DNA of 64,000 nucleotides, taken from positions 62,001 to 126,000 of the forward strand of contig NZ_KB899252.1 in NCBI RefSeq assembly GCF_000378105.1, read 5' to 3'. This DNA comes from Rubritalea marina DSM 17716. Its GTDB lineage: Bacteria > Verrucomicrobiota > Verrucomicrobiia > Verrucomicrobiales > Akkermansiaceae. Below the pieces are notes generated by a model. That model did not search any database, had not been told where the DNA came from, and was given only the letters and a program-made list of their open reading frames with translations. Shown here one piece after another: positions 7,191-41,108 of the stretch. Position numbers and translations under genes: made by a program. Numbering within the stretch: the stretch's first letter is position 1; every line of letters begins with the position of its first letter.

Positions 7191-7193
7191 TAA

Positions 7194-7349
7194 CTATTTT
7201 GACGATTTCTTGTCGCCAGCCAAGTGCATCATCTTCTTTGTCATAGCCAACAAATTATCGATCATTGCCCCTGTACTCTGGCGTGGCGGCTTCTTGGCAT
7301 CCACGTTGATTCGTACTCGTACGGTTCTGATCTTTGCTTTATCTTCCAT
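7194..7349 (-). CDS. Small basic ORF inside the metal transport operon
   Basis: A 51-codon ORF fills most of the gap between the two permease genes. It starts at MEDKAKIRTVRVRINVD and ends KKMMHLAGDKKSSK. It is highly basic, lacks a membrane segment or Cys/His metal motif, and has KKPPRQSTGAMIDNLLAMTK in its centre. No clear ribosome-binding site precedes it. Its stop lies 3 bp before the downstream permease start, so it could couple translation between the permeases. No homologue is recognised, and it may be a chance ORF. It is listed because the spacing is unusually wide for this otherwise compact operon. Confidence 0.4.
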   Translation of the reverse strand: MEDKAKIRTVRVRINVDAKKPPRQSTGAMIDNLLAMTKKMMHLAGDKKSSK

Positions 7350-7388
7350 GAGAATCTAATTGATTAGCTTCTATCAGTTTTTACGAAA

Positions 7389-8687: not shown

Positions 8688-8704
8688 CGCAAAGTTACAT
8701 TTGA

Positions 8705-9466: not shown

Positions 9467-9507
9467 ATCTCTATTCTAGCAAATCAGCGTTAAAGATCCA
9501 TCCGCAA

Positions 9508-10461
9508 TCACTTGAGCCCATCCACCACTGTGTTGATGTTGTGCTTCTGCATCCCAAGGTAGGTACCTCGGTCATAGCGCTCTCCACCATGGTCTACCAC
9601 ATCTCCAGTTTCACCCATTGCATCGGAAAATAATTCTTCATCGCTCAGAGCAACACCTGCCTGCTCAGCCACCGTCTCGATTCCCTTGCGGTTGACGCTA
9701 GATTCAGGGAAAATCATCTTCAGCTTGCGCGCTTCGATAAACGCAATCAAATCTTCTACATCCTTCACTCCGGACACATTCTCCGTCGAGATCCCTTGCA
9801 GTCCCTTAACCTCAAATTGGTATGCCTTCGCAAAATAAAAGAAAGCATCATGACTAGTAACCAAGACACGCTGCTCTACTGGCACCTCTTCGATACGCTG
9901 CATCGACCACGCCTTTAGATCAATCAATTGCTGGCGGTAGTCATCGCCACGGCTTTTAAATTCCTTAGCAAGAGCTGGCGCCTCCTTGCTCAATCCCTCC
10001 ACCACGACATCAATTGTCTTAGCCCAAAGAGCTGGATCACCCCAAACATGCGGATCCGCATATTCGCCTGACCCTGGTTCCGGCTGGATCAACTCAGACG
10101 GATCGATGCTCGCTGTTACAGCATACACATCATCCCCCCTGCTCGCTCTCGCTTCCAAGCCCACCTGCACTTGTCCTTCGAGATTCAAGCCTGAGTAGAA
10201 TATCACATCCGCAGAATTCATCGCAGCCACATCCTGTGCTGTTTGTTCGTAACTATGCGGATCCACTCCCGACTTCATCATCCCCATCACCTCGACATAG
10301 TCGCCACCTACCACTTTCACCATGTCGGTAACCATCGTAGAAGTGGCTAATACATTGATTTTTTCTTCATCTTGCCAGATGGAGACCGGCTTCCCACAGC
10401 TTGATAAAATGGCAGCGCTGAGCGCCGCAAGAGGTATGGCGAATCGCTTTACTTGTTTCAT
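9508..10461 (-). CDS. Metal-binding lipoprotein of the ABC importer (cluster A-I, YtgA-like)
   Basis: 317 residues. The ATG at 10461 was chosen because AAGGAG lies about 10 bp upstream and because MKQVKRFAIPLAALSAAILS followed by SCGKP makes a lipoprotein signal with Cys near position 22; an in-frame ATG at 10503 adds a non-signal extension. ZnuA/TroA-family features are STMVTDMVKVVGGD, GVDPHSYEQTAQD (first His ligand), ADPHVWGDP (second His), TSHDAFFYFAKAY and FPESSVN. The HDH/E-type ligand set fits Mn, Zn or Fe. First gene of the importer operon, with a palindromic operator candidate about 46 bp upstream. Confidence 0.9.
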   Translation of the reverse strand: MKQVKRFAIPLAALSAAILSSCGKPVSIWQDEEKINVLATSTMVTDMVKVVGGDYVEVMGMMKSGVDPHSYEQTAQDVAAMNSADVIFYSGLNLEGQVQVGLEARASRGDDVYAVTASIDPSELIQPEPGSGEYADPHVWGDPALWAKTIDVVVEGLSKEAPALAKEFKSRGDDYRQQLIDLKAWSMQRIEEVPVEQRVLVTSHDAFFYFAKAYQFEVKGLQGISTENVSGVKDVEDLIAFIEARKLKMIFPESSVNRKGIETVAEQAGVALSDEELFSDAMGETGDVVDHGGERYDRGTYLGMQKHNINTVVDGLK

Positions 10462-10506
10462 AGTCCCACTCCTTAGCGGCTTACAACAATTGGTCAACCC
10501 CATCTT

Positions 10507-23197: not shown

Positions 23198-23692
23198 ATG
23201 AAAGGTTCACCAATCATCGCTACAGCTCTCACGATCGTCATCCTGCTCGGACTTTACCTCGGTATGCGCGCCCTCATCCTACCAGAAGGAGTTCAGCCCG
23301 TTGCCAATAGCGGTCATGGACATGACCACGGAGGACATGATCACGGAGACCACGGACACGATCATGGCGATGCTCACGGACACAACGACACTGCCGTAGA
23401 AAGCGAATTCGAAATCTACTTCTCATCCATGCCCAAGCGTATGAGCATCTCCATCCCAAGCACCGGAAAAGAACTTTTCAATGTGGAGGAATTTGATTCT
23501 CAGGAATGGAACGGCTCAGCCACTCTCAACCTCGAAGCTCACCATATCGAACTCCAGGTAGACATCGAGTGGGAGCAGCCAGAGAACATGAACTTTGCCC
23601 AAATCGTCCTCAACCCTGAGGCGCACGCTGGAAAAGAATTTACCTTGCGCAGCGACGAAAATATTTCAGACATCGCTGAATTCGAATGGTAA
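23198..23692 (+). CDS. Membrane-anchored His-rich protein linked to a zinc-type ABC importer
   Basis: 164 residues with one N-terminal membrane helix (about 7-27) facing a periplasmic or extracytoplasmic domain. Residues 39-64 are a His/Asp/Gly block (repeats such as GHDHGGHDHGDHGHDH) able to chelate zinc, nickel or copper. The remainder is a small beta-rich domain (IEWEQPENMNFAQIVL) without recognised family. The stop overlaps the start of the ATPase gene, so it belongs to the transporter operon. No solute-binding protein gene is present here, so this protein might gather or buffer the metal for the importer. That role is inference; the His block and coupling are seen. Confidence 0.65.
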   Translation: MKGSPIIATALTIVILLGLYLGMRALILPEGVQPVANSGHGHDHGGHDHGDHGHDHGDAHGHNDTAVESEFEIYFSSMPKRMSISIPSTGKELFNVEEFDSQEWNGSATLNLEAHHIELQVDIEWEQPENMNFAQIVLNPEAHAGKEFTLRSDENISDIAEFEW

Positions 23693-24498
23693 CCGAGCCT
23701 AGCCTCGATCCCCCACAGCTTCACCTCCAATCGCTCCAAGCTATCGACTCAGCCCACCACGACTGCTGCGCTCACCACCACGAGCACCATGACCTCGTTA
23801 TCGATCAGCTCAGCGTCAGCTATCGGCAAATTGTGGCACTCGATCACATTTCACTCAACACATCCTGTGGTAATCGAGTGGCCCTGATAGGCCCCAATGG
23901 AGCCGGCAAATCAACCCTACTCAAGGCCATCGCGGGCCTCGTCCCTAAGTCCACCGGAAGCATCAGCTGGCGAGGGACTCAGATTAGGAAGTGGTCCCGT
24001 GAGTTCGCTTATCTTCCCCAGCGGGAAGCCGTCGATTGGGATTTCCCTATCACCGTTCGAGGCCTCGTTGAAATGGGGCGTTATCCTCAGCTCGGCATGT
24101 TCAAGAAATTCCGAAAGGAAGACGAAGATGCTGTCGACGGCGCCATCGAAACGCTGGGACTCGAAGACCTCCAAGAACGCCAAATTAGCCAACTTTCAGG
24201 AGGTCAACAACAACGCGCCTTCATCGCACGCGCAGTCGCCCAAGACGCCCACGTTTTATTACTAGATGAACCATTCACTGGCCTAGACCGCCCCTCTTCG
24301 GAAACCCTCGGCCAGCTCCTCGCCACCCTTGCCCAAGAAGGCCGACTCGTCATTGCATCCCATCACGACATCAACACGCTAGACAGCCTATTCAACCAAG
24401 CCCTCCTCGTGAACTGCAAGTCTCACGGATTTGGCGACTGCCAATCTTTGATCACCGAATCCTCACTCGCTGAGACATTCTCACAAAATCAAGCATGA
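23686..24498 (+). CDS. Zinc/manganese-type ABC transporter ATP-binding protein with His-rich N-terminus
   Basis: 270 residues. A 38-residue leader containing AHHDCCAHHHEHHD (residues 23-36) precedes the ATPase domain, with Walker A GPNGAGKST (69-77), FAYLPQREAVDWDFPITV, signature [17 protein letters not shown], Walker B VLLLDEPFTGLD and switch His in ASHHDIN. The QREAVDWDFP motif is shared with the ATPase at 8705, so both belong to the ZnuC/MntB group. The Cys/His cluster would lie on the cytoplasmic side and could sense or receive the metal. Starts inside the upstream gene and overlaps the permease by 4 bp. Confidence 0.9.
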   Translation: MVTEPSLDPPQLHLQSLQAIDSAHHDCCAHHHEHHDLVIDQLSVSYRQIVALDHISLNTSCGNRVALIGPNGAGKSTLLKAIAGLVPKSTGSISWRGTQIRKWSREFAYLPQREAVDWDFPITVRGLVEMGRYPQLGMFKKFRKEDEDAVDGAIETLGLEDLQERQISQLSGGQQQRAFIARAVAQDAHVLLLDEPFTGLDRPSSETLGQLLATLAQEGRLVIASHHDINTLDSLFNQALLVNCKSHGFGDCQSLITESSLAETFSQNQA

Positions 24499-25331
24499 GC
24501 TTTATCGAGTCCATCACGACCAATCCTTTCATGCAGCACGCCCTCATCGGCTGCACGCTCATCGGATTTGCCAATGGTTTTTTCAGTGGCTTTGTCAACC
24601 TTCGGCGCAACGCTCTCTCCGTCTCGGCTCTCTCCCACACCATGCTTCCTGGCATAGCCATCGCGGTCCTTATCACCCGTGAATTGACCCAACTGAATGC
24701 CTTTGTAGGCGCTCTCATCGCTTGCCTTGCCGTGGGGCTTGGTTCCTCTCTGGTGAGTCGCAATTCCCGCATCCACAATGACACCGCCCTCTCCATTCTC
24801 TACACCAGCGCTTTTGCCTTAGGCATCGCACTCCTCCCTCACCTCCCCGTCACGACCAGCCTACACGATTGGCTTTTTGGCAATATCATTCACATCTCCC
24901 CCGCCGACCTCCACCTCGTCTTCTGGGTAAGCACCATCACTCTGGTCCTGAGCAACCTCTTCATGCGCCCGCTCCTCCTCACCCTCTTTGAACCCTACGT
25001 AGCCGCAGCCCAAGGAGTCCCAGTACGCGCCATGCATTACCTCAGCTTCAGCTTGCTGATCTGCATGTTAGTTGCTTCCCTACAGGCTGTTGGCACCATT
25101 CTATCTATCGGCCTACTCGTCGCACCATCGGCCATCATGCTGCTCTTCACCGATCGCACCAATGCCATCTTTTGGGGAGGTGCTTGCATTGGCGCTGGCA
25201 CGAGTATTGCTGGTCTGTACGCAGCACACCTCTTCAACATCCAAGTCGGCCCAGCCATCATCATCTTACTGGGGGCTCTGTTCCTCACATCCTTCCTGCT
25301 AAGCCCGAAGCATGGTGTACTCAAGCGATAA
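24495..25331 (+). CDS. Metal ABC transporter permease (ABC-3 family, ZnuB-like)
   Basis: 278 residues with seven or eight membrane helices and the ABC-3 signature regions LRRNALSVSALSHTMLPGIA (about 34-53) and SLQAVGTILSIGLLVAPSAI in the C-terminal half. It overlaps the ATPase gene by ATGA and completes a two-component transport core. It differs from the 6264-8687 permeases in having no partner permease and no repressor fusion. Zinc is the most likely metal because of the His-rich accessory protein; other divalent metals cannot be excluded. Confidence 0.86.
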   Translation: MSFIESITTNPFMQHALIGCTLIGFANGFFSGFVNLRRNALSVSALSHTMLPGIAIAVLITRELTQLNAFVGALIACLAVGLGSSLVSRNSRIHNDTALSILYTSAFALGIALLPHLPVTTSLHDWLFGNIIHISPADLHLVFWVSTITLVLSNLFMRPLLLTLFEPYVAAAQGVPVRAMHYLSFSLLICMLVASLQAVGTILSIGLLVAPSAIMLLFTDRTNAIFWGGACIGAGTSIAGLYAAHLFNIQVGPAIIILLGALFLTSFLLSPKHGVLKR

Positions 25332-28099: not shown

Positions 28100-28131
28100 G
28101 CATTCTGATCCTTAGTAAGGATTTCTAAAAT

Positions 28132-28162
28132 AAGCCGCTAGAGCAACGCTCTAGCGGCTTTT
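28132..28162 (+). terminator. Rho-independent terminator of glnII
   Basis: A perfect 13-bp stem (AAGCCGCTAGAGC and its complement) encloses an AAC loop and is followed by TTTCT. It is 32 bp beyond the glnII stop. Confidence 0.88.
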
Positions 28163-28165
28163 CTA

Positions 28166-28559
28166 TTGCCTAATATAAATAGACTTCAACTTACGCCCCT
28201 CTAAATGCTGGGGTTTGAGACGCCCTAACTCGCGCTAGGAAATAGTCGAAGCCGAAACTAACACTACAAAATCTAACAAAAACCAGCAAGATCTATATAC
28301 CGGAAAAAACCAGCTCTAGCCAAAGAGGAGATACCATGAGAGCGCCGGGCACCCAAAGGAGGCGACATCGATGGAACAACGCATGACTCATGCAGAGGGG
28401 AGGAATTCTATCATCAGTGCTGGATGCCCGACTACACAAGTATACACAATTTAACAATCCCGGGTCAGACGATCTGTCTCAAAAAAACACCAATCCATCT
28501 CACAGAATAATCAATATGGTTTGACTAATGAGCTCACAAATAGGACAAAGCATGTTGAA
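28166..28559 (+). other. Gene-free stretch with a possible structured RNA and two tiny ORFs
   Basis: No conventional gene is visible. CGGGCACC (28346-28353) can pair with GGATGCCCG (28422-28430, one bulged A), closing a ~85-nt element that contains the hairpin GCATG-ACT-CATGC (28382-28394). Two micro-ORFs with good Shine-Dalgarno sequences overlap it: 28336-28386 (16 aa, behind AAGAGGAG) and 28371-28454 (27 aa, behind AAAGGAGG). It could be a leader of the downstream AraC gene, a small RNA or a leader peptide. No known RNA family was recognised. Confidence 0.35.
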
Positions 28560-29597
28560 ATGAACCTCATCCCTCGAACAACCTTCAGCACAGACTCGAT
28601 CGCCTCAGGCAATCGCTATGAAGTTTTTCGAGATAGCATTTCAGTGCTCTTCGACCTGGAACTCCAAGAGAAAAAAACAGAAGCAAATTTCTACGCCCAC
28701 CTCGACGCCGCCATGATTGGCCAAACCATGCTGGCCAACACCAGATCCACTGGAGCAATCTACAAACGCTCCAGAAAAGCGCTCTCCGCTGACGGTATCG
28801 ATTCAATCATGGTGCAGCTCTACCTGTCGGGAGCCACAGACTTTGATAGCCCGCAGATATACTCAGAAGTACTCCAAGGAGACATTATCGTCTACGATCT
28901 AGCCAAACCCGTAGCCAATAACAACACAAACTTCAACAACCTCTCAATCCTCTTTCCACGCGAACTCATCGAATCTTACCTCCCCACTGTGAGCCGGTGG
29001 CATGGCCAAGTTCTCCCTCGCAATCGCCCTCTCACCAAACTCCTAAAGCAACATATGATTTCGCTCCACAAATTAGGTGGAGAACTCACCATCGAAACCA
29101 GCGTCTGCACCCAACGCACACTACTCGACCTCGCAAGCTCAGCACTCCAACACTCGGCCGACATACTCCCCAAACACGCCGAAACCCTCCCAACCGCGTT
29201 ACTCATCGAAATCAAACAGTTCATTCGCAAGAATCTACATAAATTCGACCTCTACCCCTCCACCATCGCCAGCGCCTTCCACCTTTCACGCGCCCAACTC
29301 TACAGAGTCACCGAGCCGCTAGGGGGGCTGTCCTCACACATACGCGAGCAACGCATGCGCCACGCACTGCAGCTCATCCAGTCAGCTCAGCACCACCACC
29401 TCAGTATTGCCGAAATCGGCTATCAATGTGGCTTTAGCTGCCCCAATTCTTTTTCTCGCAACTTCAAAAAGTTCTACAACTTTAGCCCACGAGATGCCCG
29501 TAGCGCCCCACACCTCGCGCTCAAAGCTGCTAACGAGTCTGGCATCAACGGCCCAGACCGCAGTTACGAATCCTGGGTGAAATCACTCTCTCTTTAA
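28560..29597 (+). CDS. AraC-family transcriptional regulator (probable regulator of the FAAL/FkbH cluster)
   Basis: 345 residues from the ATG at 28560 (a TTG at 28521 is in frame and possible). The N-terminal ~200 residues form an AraC-binding-like ligand/dimerisation region (RTTFSTDSIASGNRYEVFRD, SILFPRELIESYLP). The C-terminal ~100 residues carry two helix-turn-helix motifs: STIASAFHLSRAQLYRVTEP and IAEIGYQCGFSCPNSFSRNF followed by FSPRDAR. It lies upstream of the biosynthetic cluster in the same orientation, across a repeat-bearing 700-bp region, so it probably controls it. The ligand is unknown, and no Shine-Dalgarno is visible before either start. Confidence 0.88.
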   Translation: MNLIPRTTFSTDSIASGNRYEVFRDSISVLFDLELQEKKTEANFYAHLDAAMIGQTMLANTRSTGAIYKRSRKALSADGIDSIMVQLYLSGATDFDSPQIYSEVLQGDIIVYDLAKPVANNNTNFNNLSILFPRELIESYLPTVSRWHGQVLPRNRPLTKLLKQHMISLHKLGGELTIETSVCTQRTLLDLASSALQHSADILPKHAETLPTALLIEIKQFIRKNLHKFDLYPSTIASAFHLSRAQLYRVTEPLGGLSSHIREQRMRHALQLIQSAQHHHLSIAEIGYQCGFSCPNSFSRNFKKFYNFSPRDARSAPHLALKAANESGINGPDRSYESWVKSLSL

Positions 29598-30307
29598 CAG
29601 AGCCTCCCCACCTTAGGTCAATGTCCGACCTAAACTTCAGAGCAGCCGCTACTGAAGCCCCTCTTCAATGAGTCATTTTGTAGACTCTATGGCGATTCAC
29701 CGAATCGCTAGTTTCACGTTTTTGACGCTATGTCGCACTAGTACAGAAAACTTAATTATCACATCTTCATATCACGCTAAAAACTAACAGTTAGCATGTT
29801 ACACTAATTCGACACTTGGTGATTACTGTATCAACGAAGACTCAATTCAAGATCCACACTTCAAACTTCAACCAATAACAAACACCCAACAAAATACATC
29901 TCAAACAAAAAATAAAAAAGCAATACTCAAACAACCAGAAACAAACCAAAATACAATATATCACTAACCACCATTAACATGAGAAAATCGCATAAACAAC
30001 ACAATCTAACATATTTATATATAGTAGGATATTACGGTTCAAAATAAACAACATTAAAACCCACAACAAAGCCATATCCATTGTTAAACAACGAGTTACA
30101 ATAACACCGCCCACACTAATAACTAACAGAAAACAGTTACAATCTGCTAACTATTTGAGACAAACCAACTAAAAAAACAACAAAGCAAGATGATATACCT
30201 AAATCACTTACAAAACACCACTAACCAAAACCAGAACACCACATCTAACATATTTATAGACACATCCTAACAACCCACCCAATAGTCTAACAAACAAGAT
30301 ACATCAC
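29598..30307 (+). promoter_or_regulatory. 710-bp AT-rich, G-poor intergenic region before the biosynthetic cluster
   Basis: No gene is seen. At its start are inverted repeats: TTAGGTC/GACCTAA (29613-29633) and GCGATTC-ACC-GAATCGC (29692-29708). From about 29870 to the start codon the plus strand is A/C-rich with few G (7 G against 35 C in 30181-30300). It has an exact 16-bp direct repeat ATCTAACATATTTATA (30004-30019, 30243-30258), CACTAACCA twice (29962, 30219) and nine copies of CTAAC. This could be a long unstructured leader, Rho-loading sequence or an array of AraC sites. No confident -35/-10 was found. Confidence 0.5.
30004..30258. repeat. Pair of exact 16-bp direct repeats (30004-30019 and 30243-30258)
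   Basis: ATCTAACATATTTATA occurs twice in the same orientation, starts 239 bp apart, upstream of the first cluster gene. The second copy ends 49 bp before the start codon. Direct repeats in promoter regions are how AraC-type dimers usually bind, and an AraC gene lies just upstream. Confidence 0.6.
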
Positions 30308-32089
30308 ATGAAAAACCTACCTATCATCACAGCAAATTGCTCCAACTACGCTGACATAGTCTTGGAGCGAGCCAAACAAACCCCTGAACGTCCAGCCTAC
30401 TCATACCTAGAAAACGGTACGACTGCCACCCAATCACTCAACTACCGCGAACTCTCGGAGCAATGCCAACGCGGCGCGAGTAGACTGCAAGAATACGACT
30501 GCTCTGGTGAACGCGTACTCCTGATCATGCGTAGTGACCTTGATTATAGCATCGCATTCCTGACTTGCATGCTATCAGGAGCCACAGCGGTAACCACCAT
30601 CGTCCCAAGCACCGCTGAACAAGTCAGAAGACTCAGCTCAGTAGCTTCCAACGCATTGCCTAAGTTCGCCATCCTACGCGACTCCGACCGGGAAAAGCTC
30701 GCAGACCTCTTTGCCGCACACCCAACGCTTCAAGACATCACACTCATCAGCTATGAAGAGCTAGCTCTGGGAGATAGAAGTCAATGGGAACGTCCAGACA
30801 CAACTTGGAATGATCCAGCATTCTTACAATACACTTCTGGATCCACCTCCTCCCCCAAAGGGGTCATTGTGACCCACCAAAACCTGAAGGACATTGGGGC
30901 GTATCACGAAGAAGTCTTTGGCATGCACTCTGAAGACATTGGCATCACATGGCTCCCCCAGTCTCACGACATGGGTTTGATTCACGGCGTATTGCAGCCA
31001 CTCTACAGCGGCTACCCTAGCTACATCATGACGCCCACAGCCTTCTTAAAAAGGCCGTTGAATTGGCTAAAGGCGATCTCTAAGTATCGAATTTCTGTCA
31101 CGATAGCGCCCAACTTCGCTTTTGACCTCTGCGTAGAGAGTGTGAAGGACAAAGATTGGCCTGACCTAGACCTGTCAAACCTCACCTGTATCCATAACGC
31201 AGCTGAGCCAATCAGACTCAACTCCTACGAGGCATTTGCCGAGACCTTTGCTCGAGTAGGATTCAGGAAAGAAGCCCTAGGCAGCGCGTACGGCATGGCG
31301 GAGTCTACCCTCGCTGTGACCAGCACACGCCGCTCTGAACTCTATGCTTACAAATCAGTAGACGCCGAATCATTTGCTAATGGTATCGCGACCGATCAGC
31401 TGGACCCTAAACGCAAATCGCTCAACATCGTGGGATGTGGCACCCCAGCTGGTGAGGTGAAACTCTGCATTGCAGAACCCAATTCCCTGACAGAACTGCC
31501 TCCCAATCATGTCGGAGAGCTTCTCCTTCAAGGCCCAATCATCACGCAAGGTTATTGGAACAATGACACGGCGACTCATGAAGCATTCCAACTAAATACA
31601 ACAAACGGCAATGGGCCTTACTTTAGAACTGGTGACCTAGCCTTCATCGATGAAACTGGCGAACTCTTTATCACGGGCCGCACCAAAGACCTCATCATCA
31701 TCAATGGGAAAAACCATTCCCCGCAGGATATCGAACTCACTACCGAAGAAAAATTCTTCGCCATTCGTCCACGCCAAGTCTCGTGCTTCTCGATTCAAGC
31801 AAATGATGCCGAGCTCGTTGTGGTGATCGCTGAAATTAAACGAGAATGCACCCGCGACACCAACCCGGAAACACTCGCCAAGCAGGTTATGAAACACCTG
31901 GCTCGCGAACACCAAATTCCCATCTTCGAGATCGTTATCGTGAAACGTGGTGAATGCCCAAAAACAACGAGTGGCAAAATCCAGAGGCAGCGCAGTAAGC
32001 ACATGTATCTCAATCAGGAGTACACAGTCGTCACTAGCTTCCGAAACCCTATGTTCAAGAATACTCAAGCGTCAGAATTAGTCTCCTAA
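30308..32089 (+). CDS. Fatty acyl-AMP ligase (FAAL), stand-alone
   Basis: 593 residues. It is an ANL-superfamily adenylating enzyme of the FAAL branch (FadD32-like), which activates fatty acids as acyl-AMP and hands them to a carrier protein instead of CoA. Motifs: YTSGSTSSPKGV (175-186), the FAAL-typical WLPQSHDMGLIHGVLQPLYS and SPTAFLKRPL-like PTAFLKRPLNWLKAISKYR, GSAYGMAESTLAV, YFRTGDLAFIDETGELFITG, RTKDLIIINGKNHSPQDIE, and KTTSGKIQR holding the C-terminal lysine. First gene of the cluster; the next starts 42 bp downstream and encodes an ACP-bearing enzyme that could accept its product. The chain length is not predictable. Confidence 0.9.
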   Translation: MKNLPIITANCSNYADIVLERAKQTPERPAYSYLENGTTATQSLNYRELSEQCQRGASRLQEYDCSGERVLLIMRSDLDYSIAFLTCMLSGATAVTTIVPSTAEQVRRLSSVASNALPKFAILRDSDREKLADLFAAHPTLQDITLISYEELALGDRSQWERPDTTWNDPAFLQYTSGSTSSPKGVIVTHQNLKDIGAYHEEVFGMHSEDIGITWLPQSHDMGLIHGVLQPLYSGYPSYIMTPTAFLKRPLNWLKAISKYRISVTIAPNFAFDLCVESVKDKDWPDLDLSNLTCIHNAAEPIRLNSYEAFAETFARVGFRKEALGSAYGMAESTLAVTSTRRSELYAYKSVDAESFANGIATDQLDPKRKSLNIVGCGTPAGEVKLCIAEPNSLTELPPNHVGELLLQGPIITQGYWNNDTATHEAFQLNTTNGNGPYFRTGDLAFIDETGELFITGRTKDLIIINGKNHSPQDIELTTEEKFFAIRPRQVSCFSIQANDAELVVVIAEIKRECTRDTNPETLAKQVMKHLAREHQIPIFEIVIVKRGECPKTTSGKIQRQRSKHMYLNQEYTVVTSFRNPMFKNTQASELVS

Positions 32090-32131
32090 AGCAACGTCGC
32101 CACTTAATAACCTCAAACAGAATCTATTAAA

Positions 32132-35100
32132 ATGCAGTTTAATAGCCTTGTAGATGCGTACCTACACCACGCCAAGCAGACACCAAATAACGTAGCATTC
32201 CGCTACTTTTCTCAGCACCTCAAAGAGGAAATCATACTCACTTATGTTGAGCTAATCGATCAATCGAAGCGCTTTGCTAACAAACTCTCACAGATTGCCA
32301 AAGCTGGCGACCGAGTACTGATACCTAGCCCCACACATGAGGCATTCATGCCCTCAGTCATTGCCTGTTGGATGCTAGATCTCACCCCCGTCCCTAGTTA
32401 TCCTCCCAAAAATGAGAGCGACCGAACTGAGCTCAAACGGCTGGCACACATCATCCAATCAGCGTCCCCATCCATCATCCTAGGACCAGCAGAGACCCTG
32501 ACCCAGCTCCAGCCCATCACTGGCGGCTCCACCTGTCTTAGCTACGAGCAATTAGCACTCTCCCCAATCGCCACAAACAACTTCAGTGCGACCGCCGCGA
32601 CTTCACCTAGTCCAGCCCTGCTACTCTATACCTCAGGCTCCACTGGTTCCCCAAAAGGCGTGCCCATCACCCATGAGATGTTAGTGAGCAATTACAGTCA
32701 GTTTATCATCCAACAAAATATCACACAAAAGGATAAGACTGTTGTGTGGTTGCCAAACTGTCACATCGCAGGGTTCTACATGCGCAGCATTCTCTCACTA
32801 GTCGGAGGAGAAACCATTGTCTACCAAGCCGCGGATTTCATCATGAAGCCCCTCACTTGGCTCCAGCTTATTAGTGACCACAAGGCCACTCTATCAGCAG
32901 CTCCAAACTTTGCATATGAACTCATTGCAGCAAGTTCAATCAGCGAAGAGCTTGATCTAAGTTCCTGGCGTATGGCCATCTCTGGGGGAGAAGTGATCTC
33001 GTCGAACACTGTGGCAAGATTCCTCAGCGCGCTTGAAAAGCTCAAACTACCTCAGCATTGCTTTACTCCATATTATGGCATGACGGAGACACTATGCACC
33101 AGTGTGCAAGACTCAGAACACCCACCAAAGCTTGCTCAGCTCTCCAGAGAAAAACTCCTAGAAAATATCGTCGAGCTCCATGAAGAGGTTTCTGAAGACA
33201 GCATCGCCTTCCTCAGTAATGGCAAACTTCTTGGAGGAACCAAACTACAGATCGTCAATCCGAACACAGAAGAACCAACCCTCGACGGACACATCGGCGA
33301 AATCACGCTTCAAGGAGACAGCATCACATCTGGCTACTGGAACCTCAGTCACTCAGACACCCAGACCTCAGATGGTTACTTCCGCACTGGAGACCTCGGT
33401 TTCATGATGGATGGCGAGCTTTTCATCACCGGCAGGCTCAAGGAGCTCATCATCGTCCGAGGAAAGAATTACTACCCTCAAGACATCGAGCAAAGCCTGC
33501 TTTCAGAATACATGGAGCACGCCATAGCCGCCCTTGCCGCATACGAAGTCGATGACAACGGACGAGCAGCTCTGGGCATTTCAGTCCAAATTGATGAGCA
33601 ATCTGAGTTGGCAACTTCACAACAAATCGAGCAAGGGATCGTGCAACTGATCAGTTCTGCATTCGGCATCCGCCCTTTGGTCAAGATTTGGCAATACTCG
33701 CAAATGCCGCGCACTAGCTCGGGCAAAATCAAGCGCGCAGCTTGCGCCAAGAACCACCAGGACGATCTCAGCCTGATCGATAGACATGACGCCGCAGCTC
33801 CCGAGGCCTTGACCAACTTAGCCCCCCATCAGGATACTTTGGAGACTCTGAAGCAACACATCGCTGAGCTACTGGCACTCCCAGCTGAAGTCCTTGGAGA
33901 CCACCATGCCATTAACTCCCTCGGTCTTGATTCCGTACAATTGGTCCAGCTTGCCAGCAAACTTAGCCAATCACTAGAGCATCAATCCGCTATAGACCTC
34001 TCGATTTTCTATCAAGACATTTCAATTGAAGATCTAGCAACACTTCTAGACTGCCCTCCCTCAAATGGAGCACACAAGTTAGAGTACACCGAGGAACTTG
34101 CCAAACTAAGCAGACTCTGCGCGAGCTACCAGAAAGCCGAACTAGCCAAGTTCGGCAAGGGAATCTTTATCACGGGCGCCACCGGCTTTCTAGGCTCCTA
34201 CCTCTTGCGTGATTTACTTCAGAACACCGAACAGCAAATTTACTGCTTAGTGAGAGCATCCGACCCCACTGCAGGCATGCAACGGATCATACAAAGCCTC
34301 TCACAAATTACTGAATGGGAAACTCAAAAACACCATTGGTCCGACCGCATCCAGGTTCTTTGTGGCTCACTCGATGCTCCATACTTTGGCTTGAACGCTG
34401 AAACATTCAGCTCACTAACAGAACAAATAAGCTCTATCTATCATAACGGAGCAAACGTCAATTTCGTGGCCCCCTATAGCCAACTCTATCAGGTCAATGT
34501 GGCCTCGAACCACACCATCATCGAGCTCGCGTTAGCGGCGGGAAATATACCAATCCACTATGTCTCCACTGTCGCGGTGTTCAACTCCCCAGACCGCGAC
34601 CAATTTCCGACTATTCGGGAAGAGGACTTCCTCCCCTCGCCTGACAGGATCTTTAGCGGCTATGCCAAAACCAAATGGGTAAGCGAAAAGATCTACCAAC
34701 ACGCAGAGTCGCTCGGCATGCAAGTAGCGGTCTACCGCCCTGCTCTCGTCATGGGAGACTCTCAAACCGGATTCTGCCACACTGATGACTTCCTTTGCCG
34801 CTTCATCAAAGGATGTATCGATCTCGGACACTTTCCGAAGCTCGATTTACACATCGATATGACCCCTGTAGATTACGTCTCCCAACAAATTATTGACCTG
34901 TCGCTCGACAGACGATCCATCGGACAACAATTCCACATTCTCAACGACAATCCAATCACCTTACCCGACTTGGTGGATTGGCTGACCCGGCAAGGTCACT
35001 CATTAGAATTGATGGATTCCGATCAATGGCACCAAAAGCTTAGCTCAGAATTGCCTACCTGGAATGCGCTCTATCCAGTCTACCCATTTCTGTTGGAGCA

Positions 35101-35305
35101 AATCCCCTGCTCTGAAGAACACAGTGAGACTATCTTGCCGTTTTTCACCAAGCGCGGCCTCAACCTCGATAGCAGGAAACGCAAAGCCAATGCTCCACAC
35201 GGCACCTCATGCCCACCTGTAGACCACCAACTGCTCAACCGCTATTTCGAGTACTTCCAAGACATCAACTTCATCTCAAACCCAAATCAAAAATCAAAAG
35301 CCTAA
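32132..35305 (+). CDS. FAAL-like ligase, acyl carrier and thioester reductase fusion
   Basis: 1057 residues with three domains. Residues 1-~545 are a second FAAL-type adenylation domain (YTSGSTGSPKGVPITHEML, WLPNCHIAGFYM, YYGMTETLCTSV, YFRTGDLGFMMDGELFITGR, RTSSGKIKR). Residues ~570-650 form a carrier protein with phosphopantetheine Ser601 in NSLGLDSVQL. Residues ~680-1050 form a short-chain-dehydrogenase-type thioester reductase: ITGATGFLGSYL (NADPH-binding), HYVSTVAVF and YAKTKWVSEKI (catalytic Tyr-Lys). This adenylation-carrier-reductase order is that of carboxylic acid reductases: an acid is activated, loaded and released as aldehyde (or alcohol after a second reduction). The next gene starts 13 bp later. 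Confidence 0.9.
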   Translation: MQFNSLVDAYLHHAKQTPNNVAFRYFSQHLKEEIILTYVELIDQSKRFANKLSQIAKAGDRVLIPSPTHEAFMPSVIACWMLDLTPVPSYPPKNESDRTELKRLAHIIQSASPSIILGPAETLTQLQPITGGSTCLSYEQLALSPIATNNFSATAATSPSPALLLYTSGSTGSPKGVPITHEMLVSNYSQFIIQQNITQKDKTVVWLPNCHIAGFYMRSILSLVGGETIVYQAADFIMKPLTWLQLISDHKATLSAAPNFAYELIAASSISEELDLSSWRMAISGGEVISSNTVARFLSALEKLKLPQHCFTPYYGMTETLCTSVQDSEHPPKLAQLSREKLLENIVELHEEVSEDSIAFLSNGKLLGGTKLQIVNPNTEEPTLDGHIGEITLQGDSITSGYWNLSHSDTQTSDGYFRTGDLGFMMDGELFITGRLKELIIVRGKNYYPQDIEQSLLSEYMEHAIAALAAYEVDDNGRAALGISVQIDEQSELATSQQIEQGIVQLISSAFGIRPLVKIWQYSQMPRTSSGKIKRAACAKNHQDDLSLIDRHDAAAPEALTNLAPHQDTLETLKQHIAELLALPAEVLGDHHAINSLGLDSVQLVQLASKLSQSLEHQSAIDLSIFYQDISIEDLATLLDCPPSNGAHKLEYTEELAKLSRLCASYQKAELAKFGKGIFITGATGFLGSYLLRDLLQNTEQQIYCLVRASDPTAGMQRIIQSLSQITEWETQKHHWSDRIQVLCGSLDAPYFGLNAETFSSLTEQISSIYHNGANVNFVAPYSQLYQVNVASNHTIIELALAAGNIPIHYVSTVAVFNSPDRDQFPTIREEDFLPSPDRIFSGYAKTKWVSEKIYQHAESLGMQVAVYRPALVMGDSQTGFCHTDDFLCRFIKGCIDLGHFPKLDLHIDMTPVDYVSQQIIDLSLDRRSIGQQFHILNDNPITLPDLVDWLTRQGHSLELMDSDQWHQKLSSELPTWNALYPVYPFLLEQIPCSEEHSETILPFFTKRGLNLDSRKRKANAPHGTSCPPVDHQLLNRYFEYFQDINFISNPNQKSKA

Positions 35306-35317
35306 ACCCTAACTATT

Positions 35318-38300
35318 ATGAACAAATTATCACTCAACGAAATCCGCAACTGGGTCACCAACTACATTGCTGAAACCCTCCTCGAAGAACCCGAAGACAT
35401 CCACCTTTCTCAATCACTCGATGATCTAGCTCTCGACTCGATGAGCGTGGTGCGCATGGCTGGAGAACTCGAAGAACTCCTCGGCGGCGTCGAGGTAGAA
35501 GCATCATTGATGTACGAATATGACAGCCTCGATACACTGTGCGAACAGCTCGAAATCATGCATGCTGGTCAGCTTTCTCGAAACCAAGAGAAAGGAACTC
35601 CGCTACACTGCACCATCTGCGCCAGCTTCACCGCTGAGCCCGTAGAGGAATCGGTCAAATACGCACTCAGCAAACTTGGATTTAGCCCACAGCTCACCTT
35701 CTCACCCTACAATCAGGTCTTCCAAGAATTACTCAACCCACAGAGCACCCTCGCGAAATCTAGAGACGACATCGCAGTGCTGATGATCCGCATCGAAGAT
35801 TGGTTCCGCTTCGAGGCTGAAGCCGTTGCTCCGAACAAAGCTGAAGCAACAGTCCAGGAATTCATCCAAGCACTCTCTTACTTTGCCCAACAAGTATCAG
35901 GAAAACTCATCTTAGCACTTTGTCCACACACCGCCGACCGTGTCCGCCACCTCGGCCTAGCAGACTTCCTAGGTAAATGGGATCAAGAGATCTTAGACTC
36001 TCTAGCCATCCTCCCCAATGTGCAAGCACTCGACCTTCGAAATCTAGACACCCGCTACGAGCTCCGCAAGGTCTACGACAGCGCGCGCGACCAGATTGGC
36101 CATATTCCCTTCTCACCAGAATTCTACACCGCAGCGGGCTTGGACCTCTGCAGAACCATGAACACCTTGATACAGACCACCCCCAAGGTGCTCGTAGTCG
36201 ACTGCGACAACACTCTCTGGGGAGGAGTCGTTGGCGAAGACGGCCCCAATGGAATTTCCCTAAGGCAAGGCTTCAAAGCGTTCCAAGAATTTCTCATCAG
36301 GCAGCAACAACAAGGAAAGCTAATCTGCCTCGCGAGTAAAAATAATGAAGCCGATGTCTGGTCAGTATTTGATCAGAACTCGGAGATGTTACTCACTCGC
36401 GAACACATCGTAGCAAGCAAGATCAACTGGAATCGTAAATCTCAAAACATCCTAGAACTTGCCGATGAGCTGCAGCTGGGCGTGGACAGCTTCATCTTTA
36501 TCGATGACAACCCCGCCGAGTGTGAAGAGGTAAGCTCCGCCCTACCCAATGTCCGCTGCATCCTCTTCCCAAATGACGAAAAAAACGCTCAAAGCTTCTT
36601 TTCTAACCATTGGAGTTTCGATCAAGCCGCAATCACTCAAGAGGATAGCAAGCGCACGCAAATGTATCGCGAAAACCAACAGCGCAGCCAAGCTCAAGGT
36701 GCTTCAAAAAGCTATGAAACCTTCCTTGCTGAGCTCGCAGTGCACACTGAGATCTCACCCCTCAATGACGCAGACATCGTTCGTGCGGCCCAACTCACCA
36801 TGCGCACCAACCAATTCAACTCCACCACCCTCCGCATGTCTGAAAATGAAATCCGCGAGTACACCAAAACGGATGGGCAGTGGATCCACACTGTCAAAGT
36901 CAGCGATCGCTTCGGCGACTACGGCTTCGTGGGCATGCTGCTCTGCAAGGTGGAGGACAAGACTCTGGTCGTCGATGGCTTCATGATGAGCTGCCGCGTT
37001 CTGGCGAAACAAGTCGAACAAGACATGCTATCCCATACTCAAACACTTGCAGAAGAGCATGACCTTCACTCTGTGTCACTACGCTTCAAAGCCAGCGAGC
37101 GCAACCAACCAATCAAAATCTACTTTGATAGCCTCGATCACATCTACCAAGAACTAGATGGCGACCTCTTGGCTTTAAACATCCCAATCAACGACATCCC
37201 GGCTGCGATCAAACGCTCCACCAAACAACGCGTTACCGAAGCTGACACTGCGACTCCGGCATCCGGAAAACCTACAAACACCCAGAGCAGCTCTTTGGCA
37301 GCGCACCACGCGCATACCGAGCTAGCCAAGCTACAAGGCGACATCGATCGATTCATCACCGAAATCCGCGCTGGCCAGAAAATGAAGCGTGGTAAAATGA
37401 AGACAGAATTCATCGCCCCACGCACCTCATGGCAGAAGAAAATTGCTTCCATCTGGTCCGATATCCTTGGCGTCGACCGCGTCGGCATCTACGATAGCTT
37501 CTTTGACCTCGGTGGCGACTCGATCCGCGCAGCCGAAGCATTCTCTCGTATGTGGGAGCTCGGAGTCCCAGATTCCATCTCACTCATCAACATCCCTGAA
37601 CCAACCGTGGCCATGCTCTGTCAGGCAATTGAAGATGTGAAAGCCGGTCGTGAGCCCACCCTCATCTCCGATGTCTTCTCCCTCGCTGAGGAAGCCCAAG
37701 TAGCTGAAGACATTCGCAACGAAGACTTCGATATTCACAGCTATGACACCCCCATGGATCAGGTCTTCCTCACCGGTGGCACAGGCTATGTAGGCGCCTT
37801 CCTCATTGCGGAAATCATGGTACAAACAGATGCTCAAGTAATCTGTTTGGTGCGTGGAGCCACCGCCGAGGAAGGCAAAGAAAGAATCAAGCGCAACATG
37901 GCCAAATACCACCTGTGGGAAGAAAGCTATGAAGCACGCGTTGAAGTCATGCTTGGCGAACTCACTGAACCATTCCTTGGATTAGGAGAGGAGCCTTTTT
38001 TCGCTCTAGCAAAGCGTATCGACACCATTTTCCATAGTGGCGCTTGGGTGAATTTCGTCTACCCTTACGACAAACTCAAGCCAGCTCACATTGACGCCAC
38101 GGAAACCGTGATGCGCCTCGCCACATCGGATAAAGGGAAGCCAATTGCTTTCCACTTCATCTCCACCCTCGGCGTCATCATGTCCACAGGATACAGCGAT
38201 GAAGACGTGGTGATGGAAGACGCGCCACTCGAACACATCGAAGGACTTCTCAATGGATACGAGCAAGCAAAACATGTGGCGGATAAGATGGCCTACATCG

Positions 38301-38890
38301 GCATGACCGAACGCAACATACCCACTGCGATCTACCGCCCTGGCATGGTTGGTGGCGTAAGCACCACCGGTGAGTATCACAAGACTGATGAGTTCCTCTC
38401 CTCCTTCTATAAAGGGTGTCTGCAGTTAGGAAGCTGGCCCCTGCTAAATACCACCTGGGAGGTAGTGCCAGTGGATTTCATCACCAAGGCAATCGTGCAT
38501 GGCACCAAAGACCCCAAAAACCTCAATCACGCATACTTCACCCTGCACCCTGAACCCACGATGGTCGAAGAATATGTCCGTTTCTTCCAAGACTACGGAT
38601 ACCCTGTGCGCGCCCTCTCATGGGATGTGTGGAAGCGCGAGCTCATCAGCCAAGGTGCCACCAAGCTTCGAGACAATGCTCTATTCCCATTTGTCGACTT
38701 CATCCGCGCACTCGACACCGAGCAAGTTCGCTTCCCCGCCACCGACCGTAGTAACTTCAAGCGCCTCGTCGAGGCTGCGGGAGTCGATGTCCCATCGCAA
38801 ACAGAAATCATGCGTCGCTACCTCGAATTCTTCATCCAACAAGGATTTGTCGAGGCCCCATCACAAACACTAACAACATCTAACTTATAA
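35318..38890 (+). CDS. ACP-FkbH-GNAT-ACP-thioester reductase megaenzyme
   Basis: 1190 residues. Order: carrier 1 (1-80, Ser41 in LALDSMSVV); FkbH-type region with an N-terminal companion domain (~95-285: SFTAEPVEESVKYALSKLGF, SPYNQVFQELLNP) and a HAD phosphatase core (~290-410: VVDCDNTLWGG at 294-304, FIFIDDNPAEC); GNAT-like segment (~460-640: MRTNQFNSTTLRM, SDRFGDYGFVG); carrier 2 (~700-780, Ser735 in LGGDSIRAA); thioester reductase (~810-1190: LTGGTGYVGAFL, YEQAKHVADKM). FkbH proteins load glyceryl from 1,3-bisphosphoglycerate onto a carrier. Here both carriers and a reductive release domain are fused to it. No adenylation or condensing domain is present. Loading of a glyceryl unit is inference from family. 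Confidence 0.88.
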   Translation: MNKLSLNEIRNWVTNYIAETLLEEPEDIHLSQSLDDLALDSMSVVRMAGELEELLGGVEVEASLMYEYDSLDTLCEQLEIMHAGQLSRNQEKGTPLHCTICASFTAEPVEESVKYALSKLGFSPQLTFSPYNQVFQELLNPQSTLAKSRDDIAVLMIRIEDWFRFEAEAVAPNKAEATVQEFIQALSYFAQQVSGKLILALCPHTADRVRHLGLADFLGKWDQEILDSLAILPNVQALDLRNLDTRYELRKVYDSARDQIGHIPFSPEFYTAAGLDLCRTMNTLIQTTPKVLVVDCDNTLWGGVVGEDGPNGISLRQGFKAFQEFLIRQQQQGKLICLASKNNEADVWSVFDQNSEMLLTREHIVASKINWNRKSQNILELADELQLGVDSFIFIDDNPAECEEVSSALPNVRCILFPNDEKNAQSFFSNHWSFDQAAITQEDSKRTQMYRENQQRSQAQGASKSYETFLAELAVHTEISPLNDADIVRAAQLTMRTNQFNSTTLRMSENEIREYTKTDGQWIHTVKVSDRFGDYGFVGMLLCKVEDKTLVVDGFMMSCRVLAKQVEQDMLSHTQTLAEEHDLHSVSLRFKASERNQPIKIYFDSLDHIYQELDGDLLALNIPINDIPAAIKRSTKQRVTEADTATPASGKPTNTQSSSLAAHHAHTELAKLQGDIDRFITEIRAGQKMKRGKMKTEFIAPRTSWQKKIASIWSDILGVDRVGIYDSFFDLGGDSIRAAEAFSRMWELGVPDSISLINIPEPTVAMLCQAIEDVKAGREPTLISDVFSLAEEAQVAEDIRNEDFDIHSYDTPMDQVFLTGGTGYVGAFLIAEIMVQTDAQVICLVRGATAEEGKERIKRNMAKYHLWEESYEARVEVMLGELTEPFLGLGEEPFFALAKRIDTIFHSGAWVNFVYPYDKLKPAHIDATETVMRLATSDKGKPIAFHFISTLGVIMSTGYSDEDVVMEDAPLEHIEGLLNGYEQAKHVADKMAYIGMTERNIPTAIYRPGMVGGVSTTGEYHKTDEFLSSFYKGCLQLGSWPLLNTTWEVVPVDFITKAIVHGTKDPKNLNHAYFTLHPEPTMVEEYVRFFQDYGYPVRALSWDVWKRELISQGATKLRDNALFPFVDFIRALDTEQVRFPATDRSNFKRLVEAAGVDVPSQTEIMRRYLEFFIQQGFVEAPSQTLTTSNL

Positions 38891-38898
38891 TAACACCC

Positions 38899-39915
38899 AT
38901 GGACAATTCATTAAAATTTGACGCCACTCAAACTGGGTTTTCAGAGTCATTCTATGTACTTTGGAACGACCCAGAGCAGCAACTCTCAATGATCGTACGC
39001 TACGTGCTATTCAACGGTCCCACCGAGGAAACGAAAATCGCTCAAGTTTGGGCCTGGTTCAGAGACCGCAGCCCTGAAGGCAAGGCAGACTTTGCCATCA
39101 AACAAAGCTTCCCTCTCGCCGCTGCACAGTTCGATCAAGGTGAAGAAGGGCTCAATATCGCGCACTCTGGGATCACTCCAGAACGCTGCTGGGGAGAGGT
39201 CAGTAATGGAGAGAACACTCTCCAGTGGGACTTCGAAATGGATGCTTCCACATGCATCGCCGTCGACCGACTCGCCGACGTCTACGATAGCCCTCTATTT
39301 CCAAAGTTCTACTCCCCAGCGTGCAAGCATGCGCTCACCGGCTCGGTCACACTCGACCAACAACAGTACAGTCTCGAACAAGTAGCCGCAAGCGATGGTC
39401 ATTATTGGAATGTACACAACATGCACAGCTGGAGCTGGTGCAATGCCGTTCAGTTCCAAAACAACCCAGACTTCTTATTTGAGGGGATTGGCTTCCATCT
39501 GAATGATTGGGGGCAGCCCTCCGTCTGGCTCACGATTGAATGGAATGGTCAGCGCTACAACTCCAACCTCATTGATGCGATGTACCACAATCGACAACTC
39601 AACAGTTCACTAGATAGCTGGGAGTTTCGTATGGAAAGAAATGAGATCAAATTCGAAGGGACGGTCACCGCCAAAGCGGAAGACATGATACTCATCACCC
39701 ATCCACTCCCTGATGGTTCCTCGCTTTACACGCACATTTCCTACAACGCCGACCTCGTCATCCACGTGTTCGAAAAGCGTGAAGGCGAATGGGTCAAGGT
39801 AGACACCGCCATCGCCACCGACACCGCCTCCTTCGAAGTCACCAAGACTGAGCGCAACCCTCACGTGACTAGGGAATTCACAGAAATCGCCGCTGTCATC
39901 AAAGAAACGGTCTAA
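38899..39915 (+). CDS. Calycin-like (AttH/CrtC, tocopherol-cyclase-fold) protein
   Basis: 338 residues without a signal peptide. Beta-strand-rich, with features of the AttH/CrtC calycin superfamily: WAWFRDRSPEGKADFAIKQS, the GHYWNVHNMHSWSWCNAVQF segment (about residues 165-184) in which the HxWSW pattern is typical, and a second beta domain from GIGFHLNDWGQPSVWLTIEW onward. CrtC members hydrate isoprenoid double bonds; AttH-like members have been linked to lipid metabolism. In this cluster it could hydrate, cyclise or simply bind a lipid intermediate. It starts 9 bp after the megaenzyme. Fold is a moderate-confidence call; the reaction is unknown. Confidence 0.6.
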   Translation: MDNSLKFDATQTGFSESFYVLWNDPEQQLSMIVRYVLFNGPTEETKIAQVWAWFRDRSPEGKADFAIKQSFPLAAAQFDQGEEGLNIAHSGITPERCWGEVSNGENTLQWDFEMDASTCIAVDRLADVYDSPLFPKFYSPACKHALTGSVTLDQQQYSLEQVAASDGHYWNVHNMHSWSWCNAVQFQNNPDFLFEGIGFHLNDWGQPSVWLTIEWNGQRYNSNLIDAMYHNRQLNSSLDSWEFRMERNEIKFEGTVTAKAEDMILITHPLPDGSSLYTHISYNADLVIHVFEKREGEWVKVDTAIATDTASFEVTKTERNPHVTREFTEIAAVIKETV

Positions 39916-39964
39916 CCATAGTTCCTACTCGAGCTCGGTGACGAGCTTTGATACATCTATATAT

Positions 39965-40375
39965 ATGCTAACAGACGAATCACTTTCACCACGACAACTG
40001 GCAGAATACATTTACCAATCCTACCAACTCCAAGACTTCTCTCGTTTCGACGAGATCATGACGGAGGACTGTAGCTGGATCATTCCCGGCAACAAAGAAC
40101 TCCTACCATGGGCTGGAGAATTTGTTCACATGGAGATGTTGGATTTCCTCAACATCATCAAAGAGCACCTTGATTTTGAATACTTTACCCCACTGAGATA
40201 CCATGTGGATGGCGAAACCGTCATCGCCGAAGTGGAGGAAAAATTCACCGTAATCAACACTGGCCAAACCGTGGTCAACAAGCTTGTTGCCATCTTTGAA
40301 ACGAAACAGGGAAAGCTCAAAAAATACACTGAGTATTCAGACACTGGCTTGCTCGAACGTGCCGTCAACGCATAA
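39965..40375 (+). CDS. SnoaL-like / NTF2-fold protein
   Basis: 136 residues from the ATG at 39965 (an in-frame GTG at 39938 would add nine residues). It follows the NTF2/SnoaL pattern: an N-terminal helix (AEYIYQSYQLQDFSRFDEIM), TEDCSWIIPGNKELLPWAG, then beta strands (VIAEVEEKFTVINTG, VNKLVAIFETKQGKLKKYTE). Family members are small cyclases, isomerases or dehydratases, or non-catalytic binding domains, common in polyketide clusters. The Asp/His pair needed for SnoaL cyclisation is not certain here. It probably tailors the product of the megaenzymes. Confidence 0.75.
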   Translation: MLTDESLSPRQLAEYIYQSYQLQDFSRFDEIMTEDCSWIIPGNKELLPWAGEFVHMEMLDFLNIIKEHLDFEYFTPLRYHVDGETVIAEVEEKFTVINTGQTVVNKLVAIFETKQGKLKKYTEYSDTGLLERAVNA

Positions 40376-40406
40376 AAATCACTCGCGGGACACCCTCGTA
40401 AGACTC

Positions 40407-41108
40407 ATGCCCATGGACCACATCGAAGTCATCTACTTCCACAAAGACCAGATCAGCTGCGATGTGGATGCCATGGTGCACACACTCACGCCCCAAGAGT
40501 TCGAGCGCCACGAGCGCCTTGCATTCCCCCACCTCAAGCGAGATTGGATCCTCTCGAGAGGTGGTCTCAGGATCCTGCTTGGCAATATTTTGGCACAAGA
40601 TCCTGCTAGCCTGCACTTCGAAAAAAACCGCTATTCCAAGCCCCGCCTCAAAGGAAGCGAGCTGCAATTCAACGTCAGTCACTCTGGGGACTACATTGTC
40701 TACGCATTCACACAGCATCGAGAGCTCGGCATCGACATCGAAAAAACGACCCCAAACTTCGCAAGCCACCGGCTCGCTACTCGGTACTTTTCTGAGGCTG
40801 AATGCCAATCCCTGAACAACCTTACAGAAAAAGAATTTAGCCGTGCATTCTATGCCATTTGGAGTCGCAAGGAAGCGTATATTAAAGCCATCGGCATGGG
40901 GCTATCTGCCGACCTCAAAGCCTTTTCGGTCGACCACCAATCCAGCCGACAAAGCTTTGAATCCCCAACACTATGCATGGAAGCACTGCATCTAGCAGAG
41001 GGATACGCCTCCGCCATCTGCTATCATGGTGAGACGCAGCTCCCAATCACTATTCGCAAACTCACCAGCTTGGCCGCACCAATGCTCAGGACCGCATCAC
41101 TCACCTAG
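40407..41108 (+). CDS. 4'-phosphopantetheinyl transferase (Sfp type)
   Basis: 233 residues from the ATG at 40407 (MPMDHIEVIYFHKDQIS); the frame is open upstream but there overlaps the SnoaL-like gene. Sfp motifs are all present: LQFNVSHSGDYIVYAF (about residues 87-102), ELGIDIEKT (Mg ligands) and FYAIWSRKEAYIKAIGMGL. It transfers phosphopantetheine from CoA to the carrier Ser, here probably Ser601 of the first megaenzyme and Ser41/Ser735 of the second. Its place at the cluster end supports dedicated activation. Converges on the DUF1653 gene with a 12-bp overlap. Confidence 0.92.
   Translation: MPMDHIEVIYFHKDQISCDVDAMVHTLTPQEFERHERLAFPHLKRDWILSRGGLRILLGNILAQDPASLHFEKNRYSKPRLKGSELQFNVSHSGDYIVYAFTQHRELGIDIEKTTPNFASHRLATRYFSEAECQSLNNLTEKEFSRAFYAIWSRKEAYIKAIGMGLSADLKAFSVDHQSSRQSFESPTLCMEALHLAEGYASAICYHGETQLPITIRKLTSLAAPMLRTASLT

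Follow-up and report, generated by a model that had tools for sequence, protein, structure and literature searches.

The 64,000-nucleotide stretch of the Rubritalea marina DSM 17716 genome analyzed here (contig NZ_KB899252.1; referred to below as the window) contains an open reading frame (35318–38890, plus strand, ATG start) encoding a 1190-residue protein with the architecture acyl carrier protein (ACP)–FkbH–thiolation domain (T)–thioester reductase (TR). The gene is part of a compact and apparently complete cassette with three carriers, two fatty acyl-AMP ligases (FAALs), two reductases, and its own 4′-phosphopantetheinyl transferase (PPTase) and regulator. The reading we favor, with a probability of about 0.4, is that two arms, a fatty acyl group on the first carrier (ACP1) and a glyceryl group on the second (T2), would be joined and then released reductively as an aldehyde, which partner enzymes would cyclize or couple.

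Domains, carriers and catalytic residues of the ACP-FkbH-T-TR protein

35318–38890, plus strand: ACP-FkbH-T-TR protein, 1190 residues (Pfam and NCBIfam domains)
35330–35551, plus strand: ACP1, residues 5–78, with Ser41 (PF00550; PDB matches)
35591–36175, plus strand: N-terminal extension of FkbH, residues ~92–286, predicted SGNH-like fold (AlphaFold model)
36176–36628, plus strand: HAD-IIIC phosphatase of FkbH, residues ~287–437, with D295, D297, T299, S340, K374 and D396/D397 (TIGR01681/TIGR01686)
36737–37195, plus strand: GNAT-like acyltransferase region of FkbH, residues ~474–626, with Cys559 in MSCRVL (alignment and model)
37391–37642, plus strand: T2, peptidyl-carrier type, residues ~692–775, with Ser735 (PDB matches are nonribosomal peptide synthetase carriers)
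37760–38848, plus strand: TR, residues 815–1177, with GGTGYVG and Y981xxxK985 (TIGR01746; MxaA, 4u7w)

The carrier model PF00550 matches the protein twice (best stretch residues 12–77), with 47.5 bits for ACP1 and 30.7 bits for T2 against a cut-off of 20.8. The FkbH model TIGR01686 covers residues 287–605 (317.4 bits; cut-off 146.65) and the thioester reductase model TIGR01746 residues 815–1177 (256.4 bits; cut-off 213.35), and the TR matches the MxaA structure 4u7w with an E-value of 7e-68. An original prediction, made from the window alone, had placed carrier serines at residues 41 and 735 on either side of FkbH and ahead of a thioester reductase; these assignments are borne out by the Pfam and NCBIfam domains and by the motifs LALDSM and GGDS, in which the two serines lie.

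Scanning 84,980 bacterial and archaeal species, each represented by one genome, recovered the same architecture in three further loci, all in metagenome-assembled genomes of Verrucomicrobia (L014, L015 and L016; 51–54% identity). The scan used short exact peptide patterns of the window protein and distant relatives may have escaped it; the L016 orthologue is truncated at the start of the HAD part. A chance match or a misassembly is ruled out both by the FkbH, TR and carrier domains, which exceed curated cut-offs, and by the recurrence of the full architecture in L014 and L015 and of part of it in L016 at these protein identities. Ser41 is kept in L014 and L015, and Ser735 in all three, that is, in every orthologue that covers each site; a lack of such conservation had been named as a result that would refute the original prediction. 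The HAD residues, Cys559 and the TR YxxxK are likewise kept in every orthologue covering them, and the TR motifs G-x-TGYxG and Y981xxxK985 in all of them.

An AlphaFold model of residues 85–660, built on a 36-sequence alignment (predicted local distance difference test score, pLDDT, 88), resolves the three FkbH parts listed above. The N-terminal extension matches 3slr at Z 25 and GDSL/SGNH hydrolases at Z 13–14.5; the HAD part is MDP-1-like (Z 17), with the 3slr match spanning both it and the extension; and the predicted GNAT-like fold matches GNATs at Z ~14. Together they are an ordinary FkbH unit, and the same three-part description (N-terminal extension or 'NEX', phosphatase, acyltransferase) is given elsewhere (PMC12304814). 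The GNAT-like region of the original prediction therefore exists as a predicted fold but belongs to the FkbH unit and is no additional domain, and the N-terminal extension had been overlooked. Residues D295, D297, T299, S340, K374 and D396 are invariant across the 36 aligned FkbH domains, so the catalytic aspartates (D295, D297 and D396), whose loss had been named as the other sign of failure, are not those of a non-functional enzyme. Cys559 is kept in at least 90% of the same alignment; it is a conserved residue of the GNAT-like subdomain and only a candidate catalytic cysteine. A dead FkbH or TR is ruled out by the conserved motifs.

We note a relative on plasmid p-YT9A of Paenibacillus polymyxa YT9 (WP_346836041.1; L055:11929-15303), which has the N-terminal extension, the GNAT part, T and TR. 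Its HAD DxD is lost (FDVAM is aligned where VDCDN is expected) and its TIGR01686 match is restricted to the C-terminal half. It may be a transitional form linking FkbH modules to modules with NEX only, for example that of BurF in malleicyprol biosynthesis.

The best PDB matches of ACP1 are the N-terminal ACP of Pks13 and Asl1650, and those of T2 are peptidyl carriers of nonribosomal peptide synthetases (NRPSs); the two carriers are thus of different type. In Pks13 it is the FAAL FadD32 that loads the N-terminal ACP, and ACP1 resembles this FAAL-loaded type. Approximately 15 residues separate ACP1 from the FkbH unit, leaving no space for a condensation (C) domain, and a search of the whole genome assembly (95.5% complete) with PF00668 gave no match, so that no C domain was found elsewhere in it either. 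A genome search with PF00550 at an E-value of 0.001 recovered four carriers, three of them in the cassette; the fourth, an 86-residue frame on contig C4, is taken as the fatty acid synthase ACP (AcpP). From these matches the cassette looks self-sufficient in carriers.

The cassette, its orthologous loci and FkbH relatives

28521–29597, plus strand: AraC-family regulator, first gene of the cassette (PF12833)
29598–30307, no strand: AT-rich gap of ~710 nucleotides upstream of FAAL1, holding ATCTAACATATTTATA twice in identical form
30308–32089, plus strand: FAAL1, stand-alone FAAL (PF00501; nearest structures)
32132–35305, plus strand: FAAL2-ACP-TR, 1057 residues; ACP residues 571–639 with Ser601, TR residues 678–1048 (domain models; nearest structures)
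38899–39915, plus strand: predicted lipocalin-fold enzyme, 338 residues (structure model)
39938–40375, plus strand: SnoaL-like (NTF2-fold) protein, GTG start (PF12680)
40407–41108, plus strand: Sfp-type PPTase, last gene of the cassette (PF01648; ATG start, alternative TTG at 40284)

In the window the genes run AraC, FAAL1, FAAL2-ACP-TR, ACP-FkbH-T-TR, lipocalin-fold, SnoaL-like and PPTase. L015 has the identical order from FAAL1 through the SnoaL-like gene, with a gene 45% identical to FAAL1 at the same position and a PPTase homologue (38% identity) at 299–1030, ~5 kb upstream. L014 and L016 show the same order as far as their contig ends permit, both ending before the FAAL1 position. All four loci have the lipocalin-fold and SnoaL-like genes side by side. 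The AraC gene has no match in L014 or L015.

The cassette is delimited by an empty site in a sister species (G005). There glnA, a small minus-strand open reading frame and mfd are contiguous, and in the window 28100–41096 lies between these genes, so that the ~13-kb cassette, from the AraC gene to the PPTase, is missing from the same site in the sister. This site comes from one sister genome; in three others (G006, G007 and G008) glnA was not found beside mfd within the stretch taken. No flanking direct repeats marking mobile-element ends were recognized at the cassette borders.

The nearest solved structures to FAAL1 are FAALs (7r7e, 3kxw and FadD32), and the same is true of FAAL2. The SnoaL-like protein scores 33.2 bits with PF12680 (cut-off 27) and is possibly an aldol or cyclase enzyme. 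Between the AraC gene and FAAL1 we observed an exact 16-nucleotide direct repeat, ATCTAACATATTTATA, at 30004–30019 and 30243–30258; its copies are possible regulator sites, a function that we infer only. Elsewhere in the window there are two separate gene sets for metal-type ABC transporters (6264–10503, minus strand, and 23198–25331, plus strand), whose permeases, ATPases and binding protein were recognized by eye from the sequence.

The 338-residue protein gave no match above threshold by sequence in PDB, Pfam or plasmid searches, its best Pfam match being Tocopherol_cycl at 19.8 bits, below the cut-off of 26.6. A model built from four sequences (pLDDT 78) predicts a two-barrel lipocalin fold, with 6kaw (Z 21.5), 7a0t (Z 20.8) and 2ich (Z 20.6) as the leading matches. 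The fold matches comprise CghA, Fsa2, Phm7, kievitone hydratase, AttH and 25-phosphosteroid lyase (Z 16.6–21.5), and the next rows fall to Z ~7; the best match spans 283 residues. AttH (2ich), kievitone hydratase (7a0t) and the Diels-Alderases CghA, Fsa2 and Phm7 are thus like the predicted fold at Z 20–21.5 over ~280 residues, but differ from the protein in sequence, with an identity of just 6–12%. Since the characterized fold relatives are cyclases, hydratases and lyases, a cyclization or addition step is plausible and the protein is plausibly a cyclase or hydratase, although a shared fold is no proof. The gene was found elsewhere only in L014, L015 and L016 and in no other of the 388 genomes of the phylum and 289 of the order that were searched (the samples overlap), so that it is not one common to the phylum in general.

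In the multidomain FkbH proteins that we looked at, a T domain mostly comes directly after FkbH, and the combination FkbH-T-TR occurs in uncharacterized KS-T-C-FkbH-T-TR proteins (KS, ketosynthase) of Niallia taxi pMEGANia (L054 8350-15366) and Paenibacillus curdlanolyticus (L017 6485-13465). Fusion of FkbH to T is thus common, and a unique FkbH-T-TR fusion is ruled out. In the FkbH tree the window protein and its three orthologues form one clade (support 100/99), and these proteins lie on a separate Bacillota branch, with deeper sister relations less well supported; the fusion of FkbH-T to a reductase therefore probably arose independently, more than once. The one paper that the literature returned on FkbH together with thioester reductase describes a pathway-reconstruction tool.

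Other FkbH arrangements were also seen. Five Paenibacillus loci (L029, L034, L035, L036 and L041; ~13.87–14.86 kb) have a second, divergent FkbH, 27–29% identical to that of the window and lying ~2.3 kb further downstream than the first. The plasmid of Rhodococcus sp. PD04 (L056:5026-15788) encodes a large protein ending in FkbH and then a separate carrier-TR protein, and this split version of FkbH-T-TR is present on plasmids of several Rhodococcus strains. In relatives from the same family and order (L003-L009) FkbH-T lies N-terminally in long open frames of 1300–3900 residues, which suggests that glyceryl-type starter units are common in the order.

A proposed two-arm route and its alternatives

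In the reading that we favor, FAAL1 would adenylate a fatty (or similar) acid and load it in trans onto ACP1, while FkbH would dephosphorylate D-1,3-bisphosphoglycerate and load the glyceryl group onto T2. The acyl group on ACP1 would then form an ester with a hydroxyl of the glyceryl group, with no C domain involved, a step for which the SGNH-like part, the GNAT-like part, or the SnoaL-like or lipocalin-fold partner are candidate catalysts. With NAD(P)H as reductant, the TR would turn the thioester on T2 into an aldehyde, giving a product of the O-acyl-glyceraldehyde type, and FAAL2-ACP-TR would convert a second acid to a fatty aldehyde. The lipocalin-fold and SnoaL-like enzymes could cyclize the released aldehyde or couple it with the FAAL2-derived one; on the model of malleicyprol, whose ring closes reductively, an intramolecular aldol closure might, for example, yield a hydroxymethyl-butenolide. 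The FAAL, FkbH and TR steps are worded after the chemistry of their families, whereas how the ester forms, in which order the steps run and what ring results are speculative.

We favor this route because the domains and catalytic residues are intact and conserved and the carriers are of different type, because FAAL1 lies ahead of the operon both here and in L015 and a T follows FkbH in most multidomain FkbH proteins looked at, and because three of the four carriers found in a genome with no detectable C domain lie in the cassette. Precedents in vioprolide, corramycin and BurF, and the adjacency of the lipocalin-fold and SnoaL-like genes in all four loci, point the same way. Several observations weigh against it. 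The cassette encodes neither an ester-forming C domain nor another dedicated acyltransferase, and both precedents require one; the domains do not define which acyl groups are used or how long they are; and the BurF closure uses a beta-keto acyl chain, so that with no KS in the cassette it is not obvious how a Knoevenagel closure could occur. More than one role would suit FAAL2-ACP-TR, the second arm. A more specific form of the two-arm route appears unlikely. In it, FkbH's own acyltransferase-type folds (the SGNH-like extension or the GNAT-like part) would join the FAAL-delivered acyl group on ACP1 to the glyceryl group on T2, again with no C domain, and after reductive release the lipocalin-fold and SnoaL-like enzymes would turn the acyl-glyceryl unit into a glyceryl-derived lipid, a butenolide or an acetal, that has yet to be described.

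The two arms could instead meet only after release, the fatty aldehyde from FAAL2-ACP-TR and the three-carbon aldehyde from FkbH-T-TR being joined by the SnoaL-like and lipocalin-fold enzymes through an aldol or acetal reaction, with ACP1 as a carrier for a further acyl group or for docking and transfer. This would not require a C domain, and it draws on two complete carrier-TR units in adjoining genes and on the two conserved candidate cyclase/aldolase-fold enzymes beside them; we nevertheless find it doubtful, as it leaves ACP1 and FAAL1 without a clear job and free glyceraldehyde requires no such machinery. The different types of ACP1 and T2, and the ability of FAALs to act in trans, would also suit a transfer station, in which ACP1 accepts a glyceryl or acyl group for another partner and the TR acts on a chain from outside. 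The genome searches gave no C domain and no other polyketide synthase (PKS) or NRPS carrier partner, the only further carrier being the 86-residue frame taken as AcpP, and we think such a role improbable.

The original prediction took a direct route, from a glyceryl carrier to a reduced three-carbon unit. Glyceryl loading by FkbH on a carrier followed by a fused TR is indeed what the domains suggest, and FkbH-T-TR is contiguous with all motifs intact. As stated, however, the route is not supported: a free three-carbon aldehyde or alcohol would be just glyceraldehyde or glycerol, for which no such machinery is needed, and the FAAL-loaded type of ACP1 and the two FAAL genes would be left unexplained. 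We regard it as the least likely of these schemes.

Under the two-arm route, the joining of acyl and glyceryl groups without a C domain becomes directly testable with five or six proteins. If true, reductive release would be added to the known uses of FkbH chemistry, in methoxymalonate, tetronate and glycerate-ester starters, and the cassette would point to small lipids of a class yet undescribed, in a phylum that has been little explored.

Comparison with characterized systems

The terminal module of BurF, ACP3-C-NEX-T-Red, has a carrier, NEX, T and reductase in the same order as the window protein (PMC12304814). In BurF two chains are joined by an ester and released reductively as an aldehyde that then cyclizes, octanoate feeding the long arm, and BurJ/BurH load the T with a different alpha-hydroxy acid (PMC12304814). 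The window protein has a NEX-like part (residues 92–286) followed by T2 and TR, but no C domain upstream of NEX (no PF00668 match); BurF has this ester-forming domain as well as PKS extension modules, whereas the cassette has no KS. BurF in turn lacks the HAD and GNAT parts, which in the complete FkbH of the window protein, like in FkbH proteins elsewhere, lie between NEX and T.

The vioprolide and corramycin starters, FAAL-ACP-C-FkbH-T, resemble the cassette in having a FAAL-loaded ACP and then FkbH-T (PMC10099666, PMC8949500). In vioprolide biosynthesis a fatty acid and glycerate give an acyl-glycerate ester, and corramycin has the same first modules (PMC10099666, PMC8949500). There a C domain makes the ester and the chain continues to the NRPS; in the window protein no ester-forming C domain lies between ACP and FkbH, the FAAL would act in trans and release by the TR would be direct. 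The KS-T-C-FkbH-T-TR proteins of Niallia and Paenibacillus are like the window protein at the C terminus and differ in having KS and C domains. The stand-alone FkbH and ACP of methoxymalonyl-ACP and tetronate pathways (for example Mad7/Mad14, PMC7489565) share the formation of glyceryl-ACP by HAD/FkbH, but their glyceryl group goes on to oxidation or to a FabH-like enzyme, in contrast to the fused reductase here.

BurF, the vioprolide start and the Bacillota KS-T-C-FkbH-T-TR proteins all contain a C domain and the window protein does not. Its parts are standard, and the protein does not constitute a new kind of system; what is unusual is the N-terminal ACP, the architecture without a C domain, and the conserved neighborhood of FAAL, lipocalin-fold and SnoaL-like genes.

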